Shown one piece after another: positions 6,216 through 12,756 of a DNA stretch of 14,009 nt. Within the stretch, counting starts at the first letter, position 1. Each line of letters begins with the position of its first letter. Origin of the DNA: Bacillota bacterium (GTDB lineage: Bacteria > Bacillota > Clostridia > Peptostreptococcales > Anaerovoracaceae). The notes beneath the pieces are model-generated. The model ran no database searches. It was not told the origin of the DNA and worked only from the letters and a program-made list of their open reading frames with translations. The stretch spans positions 1 through 14,009 of the forward strand of contig JAUNRL010000012.1 of the NCBI GenBank assembly GCA_030535715.1. Reading direction: 5' to 3'. The position numbers were made by a program, and so were the translations under genes.

Positions 6216-6638
6216 TCAGGCGAGGTTGCGCCACACACCGAAGCTCAGATATACGCCGATCAGTACGATCAGAATGCGGTCCAGAGATTTTCCGGTTTTC
6301 AGGTATCCGTACAGCAGGTACTGCCGGGAGAGCCATGCGGCCAGACCGAGATAGCCGGGCAGCAGGCAGAAGGTCAGCGGATTGCTGCGGAACGCGCCGG
6401 CGATGTCGCCCTGCAGCAGGCAGAGAAACATACCGCTGATGCCGCAGCCGGGGCAGGAGTATCCGGTGAGGCGATCGAAGGGGCAGCGCATGCCGATCCC
6501 AAAGGCGTGGATCAACAAGACGTAGACCGCGCCGGCCGCGCACAGCGCGGCTGCGCCGGCGGCGAGCTTTCCCAGCCGCCGCTTCTGATCAGCCAACAGG
6601 CAGCCGGCCGGCTGATATCGCTGGTCAGTTCTCTGCAT
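6216..6638 (-). CDS. DUF2752 membrane protein
   Basis: The product is 140 residues from ATG 6636-6638, placed 9 bases after GAGG. ATGs at 6647 and 6677 would extend the frame further into the upstream gene with worse spacing to that site. The gene overlaps the stop of the upstream DUF4234 gene by 14 bases, so it is translationally coupled. DUF2752 signatures are clear: RCPFDRLTG (51-59), CPGCG (62-66) with the Cys pair, and GDIAGAFRSNPL (77-88). Three hydrophobic segments (about 24-47, 88-110 and 118-136) make it an integral membrane protein. The CPGCG cysteines could bind metal or form a disulfide, but no biochemical role is established for the family. Pairing with DUF4234 suggests a joint membrane function. 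Confidence 0.85.
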   Translation of the reverse strand: MQRTDQRYQPAGCLLADQKRRLGKLAAGAAALCAAGAVYVLLIHAFGIGMRCPFDRLTGYSCPGCGISGMFLCLLQGDIAGAFRSNPLTFCLLPGYLGLAAWLSRQYLLYGYLKTGKSLDRILIVLIGVYLSFGVWRNLA

Positions 6639-7230
6639 CGGGATCATCCTCAAGCAGGGGTGTTTCCGCCGGCGCATTGTTTACAGGAACGATGGGCGCA
6701 TCGGGACAGATGTCGGTGCGGGCTTCCGGCGCGGCGTCCACGTTGTATTCCGCTTCTGCCTTCTCGTACTCCCGCGCGATGTCCTGTTCCGGCGCGTAGC
6801 GGAAACGCGCTTCCTCATAGGGACGGCTGCTCCAGCCGTTTCGCCGCAGGATCTGATTGATCCGATCCTGCATGAGGGCCTTGTTGATGATGGAGGTCGC
6901 GCCCACGAAGTAGTTGGCCGCCTCCATGACCAGGTAGAGAACCGGTAGATCTCTGGCTTCATTGCTGCCGCGCCGTTCCGCTTCCTCCTGGAATTTTTCG
7001 CCCTGAGTGTAGGCCCAGTAGACCTGATAGATGCCGCAGGTGACGATGATGAGTACGACAACCAGAGCCGGGCTCATCTCATCCCGTCTGCCGCAGAGGG
7101 CGTTGGCCTCATCGTGCAGCTTGTAGATCCAGTAGAAACCATAAATGCCGCAGGTGACGATGGTCAGCACGATAGCCAGGGGAATGCTTCGCTCCTGGAT
7201 ACCGGTAGGGTTCTGGTTCTGCGTTTGCAT
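6625..7230 (-). CDS. DUF4234 membrane protein with acidic C-terminal tail
   Basis: The product is 201 residues from ATG 7228-7230, with AAGGAG (7238-7243) 7 bases upstream. Two hydrophobic segments, about 15-36 and 53-74, carry the same VTCGIY core at 25-30 and 63-68, each followed by an aromatic YW pair, the tandem pattern of DUF4234. A third amphipathic or hydrophobic stretch lies at 95-118 (LPVLYLVMEAANYFVG). Residues 128-201 are soluble, first charged and Tyr/Glu-rich, then Pro/Asp/Glu-rich. The function is unknown; the family consists of small membrane proteins, often near DUF2752. It starts 21 bases after the EPSP-synthase-like gene and is overlapped by the DUF2752 gene, so all three form one operon. 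The soluble tail has no motif that I recognise and may bind a partner. Confidence 0.83.
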   Translation of the reverse strand: MQTQNQNPTGIQERSIPLAIVLTIVTCGIYGFYWIYKLHDEANALCGRRDEMSPALVVVLIIVTCGIYQVYWAYTQGEKFQEEAERRGSNEARDLPVLYLVMEAANYFVGATSIINKALMQDRINQILRRNGWSSRPYEEARFRYAPEQDIAREYEKAEAEYNVDAAPEARTDICPDAPIVPVNNAPAETPLLEDDPDAEN

Positions 7231-7251: not shown

Positions 7252-8565
7252 CTATAGCACGCGGATCCGTCCGCCAAGGGCGGTGAAATCGCGGAAAAAA
7301 TCCGGGTAATATTTGTTGATGATGCCGGCGTTGCGGATGAGTACCGGCTCGGCGCAGATGCAGGAGGCGCCGGCAGCGGTCAGCACAGCTGCCGGATTGC
7401 CCAGAGGGTCCACCTCGCCGCCGGTCAGCACGGGCTTGCCGCGAAAGTCCAGTTTGTCTTCCTCCAGCAGAACATCTCCGCCCAGAAGAATCAGCGCGCG
7501 CTGGATTGATTCCAGATCGGGACGGTTCATATCCGTGAGCATGGACGCGCCGGAAGCGGAGGCCATGGCCACAGCCAGAATGGGAACCAGATCCGGTATC
7601 CTGCCGGCGTTGATGTTGCATCCGGTCAGTCTTGCCGCCGTGACGTTGGCGCTTCCCTCGCCGAGTCCCGTGCCTGCACCCATGGTGTGGAGCTTATCCA
7701 GAATCTGCCGGGAAACCTGGGGCGAATCGGCCCGCAGTCCGCGTACGGTGACATTGCCGCCCAGGGCGCCGCAGCAAAGCCAGAAGGCGGCCTGCCCCCA
7801 GTCCCCCTCCACGCGGACGTTTTCCGGCGCGTGCAAGGACTGGCTGCCGGCGATCTCATAGGAAGGATATCCGTAGTCATCCACCGTAGAGCGCACGGCA
7901 ATGCCGTACTGATGAAGAATATCCACTGCCATGATCGGGATTTCATTGATCTGAGGCATGGTCGTCGTTCGCAGGGAGCTGTTCCCCTCCAGCAAAGGCA
8001 GCGCCATCAGCAGACCGGCCGTGAACCAGGGATCTTCTTTGCCGGTCAGGGAAAAATGGCCGTATTTCAGTCGGCCGGACAGGATGCAGATCTCCCGGAT
8101 CCGTTTGCGGTTCCGCCGGCGGATCTTCAGGCTTCCCCGGGAATGGTCCGTGCCGTGCTGCCGAAGGACGTCGAAGAGAGGCAGGATCGATTCCCAGTTG
8201 ATTTCCGGATCGCCCACAAAGGCAACCTTTTCCCGCAGCGCGGCGGCAATGGGGTAGAGCAGAGTAAGCGTCAGGACGCTTTTGCCGCAGTCCAGCATGG
8301 GTTCACCGCCGGTAAGGGCGCGCAGGCAGCGGAGGGTGGCTTCCAGATCTTCGGAAAGGGACTCCGGAAGGCTGGCACCGGGCGTCGGAGCAGTTTCGGA
8401 ACGCATCCCGGCGGTTCTGCCGTCAGCTGCCGAAGCGTCGGGACCGGCGCTGGCGCCGGCGGCCTTTGCCAGGTGCTGCGCAGCGCTGTGCAGGTGGGAA
8501 CTGACCGACCAGGGTCTGGCGTCAATGCTCCCTTTCAGTTTGGTTGGTGTCAGAATAATATCCAT
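7252..8565 (-). CDS. EPSP-synthase-like protein (AroA paralogue) with degenerate active site
   Basis: The product is 437 residues from ATG 8563-8565, with GGAGG (8572-8576) 6 bases upstream. Over its whole length it follows the AroA fold: SEDLEATLRCLRAL (71-84), LDCG (91-94), PIAAAL (105-110), GLLMALPLLEG (184-194), VEGDWGQAAFWLCCGALGG (252-270), PDLVPILAV (324-332), YYPDFFRDFTALGG (419-432). The enzyme normally joins shikimate-3-phosphate and PEP. By eye, key residues are replaced: the K and R of KSxxHR are S20 and L25; GSTLR is VLTLT (97-101); SSQ is DPW (178-180); KESDR is MNRPD (346-350); DHRI is NPAA (390-393). D325 and K418 remain. A low-complexity Ala/Gly/Ser insert (36-68) follows the first strand. 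The frame is intact, so I infer a pseudoenzyme or changed activity rather than decay. I withhold the symbol aroA. It leads the operon with the DUF4234 and DUF2752 genes. Confidence 0.8.
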   Translation of the reverse strand: MDIILTPTKLKGSIDARPWSVSSHLHSAAQHLAKAAGASAGPDASAADGRTAGMRSETAPTPGASLPESLSEDLEATLRCLRALTGGEPMLDCGKSVLTLTLLYPIAAALREKVAFVGDPEINWESILPLFDVLRQHGTDHSRGSLKIRRRNRKRIREICILSGRLKYGHFSLTGKEDPWFTAGLLMALPLLEGNSSLRTTTMPQINEIPIMAVDILHQYGIAVRSTVDDYGYPSYEIAGSQSLHAPENVRVEGDWGQAAFWLCCGALGGNVTVRGLRADSPQVSRQILDKLHTMGAGTGLGEGSANVTAARLTGCNINAGRIPDLVPILAVAMASASGASMLTDMNRPDLESIQRALILLGGDVLLEEDKLDFRGKPVLTGGEVDPLGNPAAVLTAAGASCICAEPVLIRNAGIINKYYPDFFRDFTALGGRIRVL

Positions 8566-8581
8566 ACGCAGCCTCCATCAT

Positions 8582-8598
8582 TGATCATACTACCATAA
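8582..8598 (-). promoter_or_regulatory. Promoter core of the EPSPS-like operon, copy 1 of a 17-base repeat
   Basis: On the minus strand this 17-mer contains TATGG followed by -10-like TAGTAT (8587-8592), an extended -10 arrangement, then TGATCA (8582-8587, palindromic). A weak -35 TTGCCT lies 17 bases upstream, inside the terminator hairpin of htrA. The same 17 bases recur exactly at 12772-12788 in front of another minus-strand gene. Confidence 0.55.
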
Positions 8599-8639
8599 AA
8601 AGGAAAATAAGGCAAGGGAACACGGCGTTCCGTTGCCTT
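8597..8639 (-). terminator. Intrinsic terminator downstream of htrA
   Basis: A 13-base stem with one C-C mismatch (8627-8639 with 8609-8621) and a 5-base loop is followed on the minus strand by TTATTTTCCTTTTT. It begins 55 bases past the htrA stop. It separates htrA from the EPSPS-like operon, although the operon promoter overlaps its downstream edge. Confidence 0.75.
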
Positions 8640-8694
8640 TCTATAGTTTGAATACGGCCCTCTGTTCGAAACGGACAAAAGAACCGTTCCCCTG

Positions 8695-10266
8695 TCACTG
8701 TCCGAAGAAGTAGTCGAAGAGGCTGCCGCCTTCATCGGGGATCATCTGGCTGCCCGAATCATTCCGGCCGCTCTGGCTTTCCTGCCCGGCAACCTTGTCC
8801 GTGACGGATTTTTCTTCCAGCTTCAGCCTGATCTCCTTCTTGCTCCCGTTACGGACGATGGTAAAAGTCAGGGTGTCCCCCACCTTGTGGGAGGTGACGA
8901 TGGAGGACAGATCATCGAAGGCGGTGATCTCCTCGCCGTCAACGGCGGCAATGAGATCGCCGGGCTCGAAGCCGGCTTTCTTCGCGTTTCTGCCGTTGAC
9001 GCTGTAGATGTAAACCTGTGTGGCGGTCTGTCCGCCGAAGATGGAATCAAAGGAACTGAAGGAGTCTCCGCCGGCGGCCCCTTCCTTATAGGTCATGCCG
9101 GTGGAGGGCTGTCCGCTGACGTAGCCTTTGTCGATCAGCTGCTGGGCGACGTTGGTTGCCGTGTTGATGGGGATGGCGAAGCCAAGCCCTTCCACGTCGG
9201 ATCCTGCGGATTTTGCCACCACCAGTCCGATCAGCTGACCGCTGCCGTTGAACAGCCCACCGCCGGAATTGCCCGGGTTGATGGAACTGTCGGTCTGCAG
9301 CAGGTGCAGGGTCTTGCCGTCGATAGACAGAGCCCGATCCTTGGCGCTGATGATGCCTGCGGTTACCGTCCCGCCCAGTTCGCCCAGCGGGTTGCCGATG
9401 GCCACGGCCAGATCGCCGACCTCCAGCTGGTCGCTGTTGCCGTAGGTTGCGGCGGAGAGGCCGGAGGCACTGATCTTGATAACGGCAACGTCGTTGTTTT
9501 CATCGGTGCCGACCAATTCGGCATCGTATTCCTTTTTATCTGTAGCCGTCACCTTGATTTTGCTGGCGCCGTTGATGACATGGTTGTTGGTCATGATGTA
9601 ACCGTCTTTGCTGATGATGACTCCGCTGCCCGCACCCTGGGTGACGTACTGCTGCATCCAGGAGTCGGAGGTAACGCTTTCCGTACGTATTTCCACAACA
9701 CTGTCCTTGGCCCTGGCGGTGATTTCCTTCACCGTCATCTGGTTGCCGGTTGCGTTTTCCAGAGAGTAACCGGCGGTTTCGGCCGAAGATCCGGAATTGC
9801 TGGTGCTCGATCCGGCAGCGGTCTGCGCCGCGCCGGTGGGATGGGGCGAGATGAGGGCATTGCCAAGAAGGGATCCGCCGAACCCGAAGAGGGTGGACAG
9901 GATCATGCAGCCGACGACCAGGAAAGCCAGTGCCCGCCGGGACAGGATAACAGATCCGGTCTTTTTCTTTTTGCCGCCTCCATGGGGTACGGATCCCGCT
10001 CCGCCCGTTCCGCCGCTGAAGGAGCGGGTGCCGCCCGTACGCCGGGTTTCACCGTTGCTCCAGGATACGGATTCGCCGTAGCGGAAGTTTCGCCGGGGAT
10101 CGGCGTAGCTGCCTCTGGAGGAGCTGTCATCGTAACCGGGATTCTCGAAGACGGGCCGCGCGTTCCCTGGCCGGGATGCGGCCTTTTCCTCCGGATCCCG
10201 CAGGATGAAGTTTGGCTCGTAGTTCGAGGTTTTCTGCGTGTAGTCGTTCTTGTTCTTTCTATCCAT
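8695..10266 (-). CDS. htrA: HtrA/DegP-like membrane-anchored serine protease
   Basis: The product is 523 residues from ATG 10264-10266, with AAAGGAG (10274-10280) 7 bases upstream. Residues 1-108 are a long cytoplasmic tail rich in Gly, Ser, Arg and Tyr, ending in a Lys/Gly stretch. One transmembrane helix (about 112-136) anchors the protein, and a Ser/Thr/Gly linker (140-170) leads to the extracytoplasmic protease. The catalytic triad is H229 (TNNHVI), D259 (NNDVAVI) and S334 (INPGNSGGGLFN). A single PDZ domain spans about 400-485 (AGFEPGDLIAAVDGEEI). This is the usual layout of Gram-positive HtrA proteases, which degrade misfolded secreted proteins. The C terminus is a polar spacer followed by an aromatic tail (SLFDYFFGQ) that might dock in a PDZ domain. 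It is transcribed alone, divergent from glnS; no CtsR or CssR operator was recognised in the 238-base intergenic region. Confidence 0.93.
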   Translation of the reverse strand: MDRKNKNDYTQKTSNYEPNFILRDPEEKAASRPGNARPVFENPGYDDSSSRGSYADPRRNFRYGESVSWSNGETRRTGGTRSFSGGTGGAGSVPHGGGKKKKTGSVILSRRALAFLVVGCMILSTLFGFGGSLLGNALISPHPTGAAQTAAGSSTSNSGSSAETAGYSLENATGNQMTVKEITARAKDSVVEIRTESVTSDSWMQQYVTQGAGSGVIISKDGYIMTNNHVINGASKIKVTATDKKEYDAELVGTDENNDVAVIKISASGLSAATYGNSDQLEVGDLAVAIGNPLGELGGTVTAGIISAKDRALSIDGKTLHLLQTDSSINPGNSGGGLFNGSGQLIGLVVAKSAGSDVEGLGFAIPINTATNVAQQLIDKGYVSGQPSTGMTYKEGAAGGDSFSSFDSIFGGQTATQVYIYSVNGRNAKKAGFEPGDLIAAVDGEEITAFDDLSSIVTSHKVGDTLTFTIVRNGSKKEIRLKLEEKSVTDKVAGQESQSGRNDSGSQMIPDEGGSLFDYFFGQ

Positions 10267-12160: not shown

Positions 12161-12185
12161 CCCGAGAAACAATGTGGAAGGATCC

Positions 12186-12565
12186 ATGACCACAAAGCAC
12201 AACATTCCCGAGCTGCTGGTGTCCGTCGGCGGCCGGAAACAATTCTGGGCTGCGGTGAATAACGGCGCGGATGCCGTTTGTCTCGGCAGCCTTCGTTTTC
12301 ATGCGCGGCAGAGTGCGCCCGATTTCGCTGCGCATGGAACTGATGACGTTCATCGGGAAGCCGACCGGTCTTCGAATCTCCGACGGACGGGCGAAAGCGG
12401 CGATCACCGGAAGTGTCCCGGCGGAGGCAACCCGGAACCGGAGACGAAGGCGTTTCGCTGATGATTCTGGAGCATCCCGTGCAATCAAAAACCCTTGCGG
12501 ACCGCAAGGCGTGGTGCGCAGGATCGGACGGTCTCTTTCTGGAGATAAGATGGTTATCCGCTGAC
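12186..12565 (+). pseudogene. U32 peptidase (collagenase-like) remnant with large internal deletion and frameshifts
   Basis: ATG 12186 follows GGAAGGA (12176-12182) and begins a U32-like N terminus: PELLVSVGG, AAVNNGADAVCLGS, LRFHARQSAP (about 45 residues). After about 12320 this frame loses similarity and stops at 12461. The +1 frame then reads ISLRMELMTFIGKP, TGLRISDG, ITGSVPAEATRN (about 12325-12430), which resembles the C-terminal DUF3656 domain that follows U32 catalytic domains. A third frame near 12515-12560 reads DGLFLEIRWLSA, again like that domain. The whole catalytic middle (several hundred codons) is missing. Intact relatives act on peptides or modify RNA or cofactor pathways (for example RlhA and TrhP in hydroxylation). 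The assignment is by eye; the N-terminal part is firm, the C-terminal part tentative. Confidence 0.6.
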
Positions 12566-12567
12566 GG

Positions 12568-12756
12568 TCAGACCTCGTTGGCGTTCCTGAACATGGAGAA
12601 GGATAGGAAGAATACTGCCGCAGAGATGAGGATCCACGCGAAGGGAAAGCCCTTCTGCGCGGCGATGTAGAGACAGGCCAGCCCGATCAGGAAAAGGAAG
12701 ATCGAACTGAGAATGTATCGGGGGGTTCTGCGTGATCCGTTGTTTCTGAAACTCAT
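12568..12756 (-). CDS. Small two-helix membrane protein, unknown function
   Basis: The product is 62 residues from ATG 12754-12756, with GGAGGT (12765-12770) 8 bases upstream. A basic N terminus (about 1-13, Arg/Asn-rich) is followed by two hydrophobic helices, about 14-33 and 38-56, separated by a short Gln-Lys-Gly turn, and a polar tail. By the positive-inside rule the N terminus is probably cytoplasmic. I do not recognise a family. It stands alone on the minus strand between the U32 remnant and nhaC, with its own promoter carrying the 17-base element also found before the EPSPS-like operon. The ribosome-binding site, start and clear two-helix pattern make it a real gene. Confidence 0.7.
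   Translation of the reverse strand: MSFRNNGSRRTPRYILSSIFLFLIGLACLYIAAQKGFPFAWILISAAVFFLSFSMFRNANEV

Follow-up and report, generated by a model that had tools for sequence, protein, structure and literature searches.

EPSP synthase (EPSPS, AroA), the target of glyphosate, has been much studied for that reason. A relationship has also been drawn between the fungal activator QutA and the AroB-EPSPS half of the AROM protein. In EPSPS, K22, R124 and K411 are named as PEP residues (PMC3411725), and Glu341 as the acid/base (PMC7144000). The plant protein SKL1 is presented as a shikimate kinase-like duplicate that lacks the substrate-binding and catalytic residues and has no kinase activity; according to the same source, it has sites under purifying selection, its role has been shown by mutants, and its relative SKL2 is under positive selection (PMC2593004). 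Fungal repressors of the QutR/QA-1S type are related to the C-terminal half of AROM, and the working hypothesis put forward for them is that they are inactive and bind the inducer (PMC10512348). Then, could an EPSP synthase drop both substrate sites and still be kept by selection? Among the literature matches listed, we found no earlier report of an inactive bacterial EPSPS or an EPSPS pseudoenzyme. The 'aroA paralog' of PMC3937554 was considered as a precedent and rejected, since it is, as presented there, a DAHP synthase; PMC8983318 and PMC11588093 contributed nothing decisive.

The window, that is, the whole stretch of 14,009 nucleotides analysed here, carries at 7252..8565 on the minus strand an open reading frame of 437 aa that starts with ATG, contains no internal stops and encodes an EPSP-synthase homologue without most of the substrate-binding residues. 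This homologue and its orthologues are termed AroA', and the window genome is G000. TGGAGG lies upstream of the ATG, and the codon use correlates at 0.906 with that of the other window genes (nine-gene range 0.80-0.95). Consequently, the description in an earlier note on this DNA, a frame without stop or frameshift, with a good ribosome-binding site and normal codon use, is confirmed. A sigma-70 scan gave no promoter before the gene. The Pfam model PF00275 (EPSP_synthase) matches residues 88-426 with 101 bits (cut-off 22.8, E=8e-29), and the closest solved structures by sequence are EPSPS chains (5xwb, E=1.4e-17). The NCBIfam aroA equivalog (TIGR01356) gives 127.7 bits, below its cut-off of 287.25, and 119.5 and 120.8 bits for the AroA' of G003 and G065. 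However, an intact AroA of G065 also stays below this cut-off (270.1), so that the equivalog score alone is not decisive. The murA equivalog gives 32.8 bits against a cut-off of 392.7, which places AroA' outside MurA. AlphaFold2 models built from 2 and 3 alignment rows had pLDDT values of 33.5 and 50.2 and were not usable; a PDB search with the latter ranked EPSPS first, but at a TM of 0.28, and this was not counted as evidence. An Ala/Gly/Ser/Pro-rich stretch at residues 36-66 (8368-8460) varies in length among the AroA' copies.

AroA' was searched for in 60 relatives and then in 49 genomes of the genus, where it is present in ten (G000, G001, G003, G006, G010, G011, G012, G025, G065 and G069), a group of related gut bacteria. 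No copy has an internal stop; that of G025 is cut at a contig edge and misses its 5' end. Among 297 genomes evenly sampled across the order, three gave a match at E <=1e-125, all of the same genus. A maximum-likelihood tree built on 46 rows places AroA' as one clade (100/100), with a stem of 1.09, among intact copies of what we call clade A; a second group of intact copies, clade B (11 rows, 100/99), is the sister of the grouping of clade A and AroA'. Intact copies of both clades occur together in G004. No viral relative was confirmed by the AroA' profile; two viral matches of the canonical AroA profile look like ordinary enterobacterial aroA and were rejected. The AroA' locus is found twice in G065 (L086 and L087, with equal scores, on contigs of 375 kb and 9 kb), and in G010 another piece of AroA' lies at a contig end with its neighbour gene for a DUF4234 protein (L092); both are probably assembly redundancy. 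In addition, G012 carries a further AroA-like gene (L091 4701-6014) on a small contig, with 32% identity to E. coli AroA and 15 of the 21 contact sites described below, which may be contamination, transfer or another unusual EPSPS.

The residues of AroA' were compared at 21 positions (E. coli numbering) that contact shikimate-3-phosphate or PEP, in an alignment that took E. coli K-12 AroA and copies from related genomes of the genus as references. Only D242, D313 and K411 are kept in the window copy (3/21), and all ten AroA' copies keep only 3-5 of the 21 sites, whereas every one of 37 full-length ordinary copies of clades A and B in the genus has 21/21. The loss of substrate-contact residues therefore exceeds chance. 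E. coli AroA itself scores 19/21 against the genus reference. The 37 ordinary copies comprise 28 first rows, 7 further rows for which the frame was chosen by motif match (exactly one per locus), plus one clade-B copy each from G065 and G069. Left out were the truncated G005 copy (14 of 15 readable sites kept, V at 313), a split clade-B copy of G010, the copies of G009, G062, G067 and G071, the weak second matches of G031 and G063, and C313 of G012, which belongs to another AroA lineage and keeps 15/21.

In the window copy, SVSSHL (8491..8508, minus strand, as are the following) replaces KSxxHR with K22, S23 and R27, VLTLT (8263..8277) replaces GSTLR at G96..R100, DPW (8026..8034) replaces SSQ at S169-Q171, and NPAA (7387..7398) replaces DHRI with H385 and R386. 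These four changes, listed in the earlier note, are real in the alignment, while its fifth, KESDR to MNRPD, is a loop deletion: six columns of the KES(D/N)R loop, which holds K340, are deleted at 7525..7530 in the window copy and in the nine orthologues, and seven columns in G006. The contact motifs are absent, not shifted, which rules out that they were only displaced. Some of the replacements are themselves fixed, such as L at 27 with the following H and the P of DPW, each identical in 10/10 copies. The basic stretch LKIRRRNR (8107..8130) reads K-I-[KR]-R-R-[DN]-R in all ten and is absent from two ordinary copies aligned beside them; it sits in a loop that is missing from ordinary copies or differently filled. 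Twelve residues (R17, L25, H26, Y168, E177, P179, P204, P234, K291, G300, A306 and L343) are invariant in those AroA' rows that have a letter there, R17 being read in 9 of the 10, and occur in 0/28 ordinary rows. As clade B has 8 residues by this count and an 11-row subgroup of clade A has 4, these residues lend modest support to a retained, non-catalytic AroA' and partly reflect shared ancestry. A broader count of 33 AroA'-invariant columns was dropped, because most of the residues occur in some ordinary rows and the controls gave 1 and 57.

Could AroA' still be an enzyme, with a new substrate and a new reaction in a reshaped cleft? D242 is kept in 10/10 copies, K411 in 9/10, S197 in 7/10 and D313 in 5/10, so some chemistry may be left to the protein, and NikO shows that the EPSPS fold can accept a different acceptor (its structure, 4fqd, is among the PDB matches listed). 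However, the PEP ligands K22, R344 and R386 are kept in 0/10 and R124 in 1/10, D313 is G or E in the other five copies, and the former contact columns are more variable within AroA' than the average column (1.40 vs 0.99 bits). On this balance, we regard a new enzyme as quite unlikely, and a protein kept for something other than catalysis as the better reading of these sites.

Such a protein should show constraint on its sequence. By the NG86 method, dN/dS of AroA' is 0.088-0.175 in the seven lowest pairs, with dS near saturation for most pairs; it is 0.093 for G011-G065 and 0.088 for G010-G065, and deeper pairs reach 0.48. For the window-G003 pair, where dS of AroA' is 0.67, dN/dS is 0.175, next to 0.177 for HtrA, 0.079 for GlnRS, 0.138 for the DUF4234 protein, 0.282 for DUF2752 and 0.124 for an antiporter. 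The corresponding values for AroA', the clade-B AroA and AroB are 0.145, 0.206 and 0.155 in G065-G069, and 0.253, 0.230 and 0.173 in G001-G065. Over the same genome pairs, AroA' exceeds the clade-B AroA in 4/6 and AroB in 13/15, mostly by little, the largest excesses being 0.451 vs 0.321 (AroB, G001-G003) and 0.307 vs 0.179 (clade-B AroA, G001-G012). Thus AroA' is constrained, somewhat less than the working clade-B AroA and AroB. The window branch, with 28 amino-acid, 43 synonymous and 18 ambiguous changes, shows no clear relaxation compared with the G003 branch (32, 39 and 38). At columns otherwise invariant, departures number 7/118 in the window copy, 2/113 in G003, 8/119 in each of G006 and G012, 21/125 in G025, and 0-4 in the remaining copies; consequently, relaxation is possible in some lineages.

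A redundant aroA left to decay slowly would fit part of this picture, since the contact sites are free to vary, G025 departs at so many invariant columns, the copy resident beside aroB is missing in four related species, and a gene near by in the window is itself a remnant. The latter (12174-12620, beside GlnRS) appears to be a decayed gene with short N-terminal and C-terminal pieces left, whose intact counterpart in G003 (L003 893-2995) has 700 aa and by eye is a U32-type protease. By contrast with this local pseudogene, AroA' is intact. Internal stops, which would mark a pseudogene, are found in neither the gene nor its orthologues (0/10), dN/dS is near that of working genes, and AroA' persists in two genomes in which the pathway was not detected. 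Moreover, when unconstrained drift of the G003 frame was simulated, 78, 3, 0 and 0 of 2000 runs stayed free of stops at 0.1, 0.2, 0.335 and 0.67 changes per site. We therefore hold a decaying relic to be very unlikely. The earlier note had favoured selection for a non-EPSPS role over random decay, and the stop-free orthologues, the low dN/dS across them and the match with HtrA all support it. Catalytic residues lost in 10/10 copies, together with purifying selection after the loss, are features of a pseudoenzyme. Judged from sequence comparison, AroA' is thus best read, with a probability of about 0.7, as a non-catalytic pseudoenzyme, derived from an EPSP synthase by loss of both substrate sites and maintained by purifying selection.

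The place of the gene bears on its origin. Upstream of AroA' in the window, a gap of 129 bases (8566..8694, minus strand) occupies the place of aroB in related genomes, followed by an HtrA-type serine protease with a PDZ domain (8695..10266, minus strand; Pfam), a frequent neighbour of aroB in the genus. The order HtrA-AroB-AroA' occurs in G001, G003, G010, G065 and G069, and AroB-AroA' in G011 and G012, where the contig is cut before HtrA. In the window genome and G006, HtrA is followed by AroA' without AroB between, while in G025 the contig ends before the AroA' gene. There is no aroB remnant in the window gap, and the G006 gap gave one 23-aa match at chance level (E 4.5). Among genomes with ordinary copies, G007 and G008 have a clade-A copy as the only AroA found, with AroB adjoining it and HtrA near, and G022 has, with other ORFs between, HtrA, DAHP synthase, AroB, AroA and AroC. 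Because the aroB-aroA order is shared by these three genomes and the AroA' genomes, AroA' is an old resident of the aroB-aroA place. The term paralogue used in the earlier note thus holds as to homology with EPSPS, but not in the sense of a recent duplicate.

The same neighbourhood suggests that AroA' might be a non-catalytic subunit that stabilises or regulates AroB (dehydroquinate synthase), much as adjoining domains may do in fungal AROM. Indeed, aroB is directly upstream of AroA' in 7/10 genomes; it is the sole PF01761 match in G001, G003, G010, G011 and G012 (G065 and G069 were outside this search), and the AroB of G003 scores 323 bits, above the aroB equivalog cut-off of 305, with its conserved blocks aligned. 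However, the aroB-aroA order predates AroA', and the window genome and G006 have kept AroA' without aroB at that place and with no other aroB found. Consequently, a partnership with AroB appears unlikely, and a pseudoenzyme with a job of its own is preferred.

What, then, supplies EPSP synthase in these bacteria? A clade-B AroA was found in 5/10 AroA' genomes, in full length in G001, G012, G065 and G069 but split in G010. In G065, it lies in an operon with the order recA, prephenate dehydratase, DAHP synthase, TyrA, clade-B AroA, AroC, AroE-AroK fusion, AroQ, L21 and Obg. As far as gene content tells, catalysis in the pathway-bearing AroA' members is served by the intact clade-B AroA of this recA-linked operon. 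The clade-B gene of G010 (L096 2711-4074) is split over two overlapping frames, which is either real damage or an assembly error. Two further peculiarities were seen: a single frame of G065 (L088 7226-8746) encodes a fusion of AroE with AroK, and the chorismate synthase frame extends to about 770-970 aa in several genomes. In G018, G032, G033 and G034, only clade B is found, and AroB is present with no AroA copy after it. A history consistent with this distribution is that the second AroA (clade B) took over catalysis and freed the resident copy, which would have gone missing in some related species and been remodelled into AroA' here. A canonical second aroA, which the earlier note had proposed to look for, is thus found intact in several members, although the window's own assembly (90% complete) has no second aroA, only MurA.

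An EPSP synthase also needs a shikimate pathway to serve. In the 90% complete window genome, no match was found for PF00793, PF01761 and PF01264, nor, as a weak test, for PF01220; PF01202 (shikimate kinase) does match, with 50.7 bits, compared with 64.8 bits in G006. A search of 20 genomes for DAHP synthase (PF00793) gave no match in G000, G003, G006 and G025. Eight AroA' genomes were searched for AroB (PF01761) and chorismate synthase (PF01264): neither was found in G000, G006 and G025, and in G003 and G011 chorismate synthase was not found; G065 and G069 carry chorismate synthase. Chorismate synthase was also not found in 3 of 29 genus genomes without AroA' (G020, G026 and G028), so that its absence is nothing rare in assemblies of this kind. 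For type II dehydroquinase, no match was found in 6/14 genomes (G000, G003, G006, G011, G018 and G022), and since G018 and G022 have other pathway genes, its absence is a weak sign.

The flanks of the recA-linked operon were therefore compared. In G006, only 107 bases separate the recA and L21 frames, a clean absence of the operon; upstream of recA lies a GDPD gene. In the window genome, about 690 bases after recA contain no prephenate dehydratase, and the ORF before L21 is not AroQ. This is indirect evidence that agrees with missing pathway genes at 90% completeness. By eye, the latter ORF had been taken for a phosphodiesterase, a reading dropped because Pfam gives no family. Pathway loss was also considered for G003 and G025, in both of which DAHP synthase and chorismate synthase were not found; G003 has no recA or ribosomal L21 match either, an example of a shared assembly gap that mimics pathway loss, and in G025 contig ends truncate both recA and aroQ. 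Both cases are probably assembly gaps and were not counted as losses. The G011 pathway is probably present, since recA and DAHP synthase share one short contig. Provided that the pathway exists in G003, which keeps AroB, and in G025, which keeps AroQ, the losses in the window genome and G006 would be independent, because the copies of G003 and G025 are nearer to the window copy in the tree than that of G006.

These data also bear on whether AroA' could be the real EPSP synthase of its genome, with unusual residues. No other AroA-like gene was found in the window genome. However, this genome gave no match for DAHP synthase, AroB or chorismate synthase, and the pathway-bearing members carry a second, intact AroA, so that this reading is hardly credible. 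AroA' persists in G000 and G006, where key shikimate genes were not found. Since it is kept by selection even where much of the pathway seems gone, the non-catalytic AroA' probably does a different, pathway-independent job.

What this job could be is suggested by the next gene. A DUF4234 protein (6625..7230, minus strand; PF14018, Pfam) lies 21 bases downstream of AroA' on the same strand, and such a gene comes next in the same direction in 7/10 genomes (G000, G003, G006, G010, G011, G065 and G069), with other genes in its place in G001, G012 and G025. DUF4234 matches of at least 100 bits occur in 7/10 AroA' genomes vs 1/39 others (G016, 147 bits; Fisher p about 1e-5, uncorrected for descent), with weaker matches of 47-60 bits in a further five. 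Among the literature matches listed, one paper names DUF4234. From hydrophobic stretches read by eye, the DUF4234 protein appears to be a membrane protein. The two-domain cleft of AroA' might now bind another ligand or a protein, with the clade-specific K-I-[KR]-RR-[DN]-R stretch, H26, E177, P179 and K291 as candidate contacts, and AroA' might be a soluble protein that works together with the DUF4234 protein at the membrane, as a sensor or an adaptor. This idea of a membrane module is based on neighbourhood and co-occurrence, which is a weak basis, and the link may be mere descent. It is conceivable, but rather doubtful, that the whole could be told as follows: AroA' would be a first for bacteria, an EPSPS pseudoenzyme fixed as a binding protein independent of the pathway; it would have arisen in one burst from the aroB-linked EPSPS of one genus, would signal or scaffold at the membrane via DUF4234, and would have survived loss of the shikimate pathway in one case at least and probably in two.

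AroA' would thus be a natural EPSPS relative that has dropped both substrate sites and yet is kept, for which the literature matches listed hold no counterpart. Pseudoenzymes as such are already known; what would be new here is EPSPS as the parent enzyme. The genus shows apparent stages, that is, one intact copy, two intact copies (G004), the resident missing, the resident remodelled with the pathway present, and the resident remodelled with the pathway apparently gone. As these stages stand side by side, the passage from enzyme to non-enzyme is directly testable. In practice, a PF00275 match need not mean an EPSP synthase, for example, when the glyphosate sensitivity of gut bacteria is predicted.

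Compared with known systems, AroA' shares with EPSP synthase (PF00275, TIGR01356) homology over most of the chain, the aroB-adjacent place and the order of blocks, but differs in keeping 3 of the 21 contact residues, in the deleted KESDR loop and in scoring below the equivalog cut-off. MurA, NikO and other enolpyruvyl transferases belong to the same fold family; MurA is set apart by the failing murA model score and by the presence of a separate MurA in the window genome. SKL1, as described, resembles AroA' as a duplicate of a shikimate-pathway enzyme whose substrate-binding and catalytic residues are gone and which has sites under purifying selection, whereas it has another enzyme fold, occurs in plants and has a role shown by mutants, AroA' being bacterial. 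The QutR/QA-1S repressors, on the hypothesis offered for them, are likewise shikimate-enzyme domains thought to be inactive yet ligand-binding; however, they are eukaryotic, and their parent domains are a kinase, a dehydratase and a dehydrogenase instead of EPSPS.
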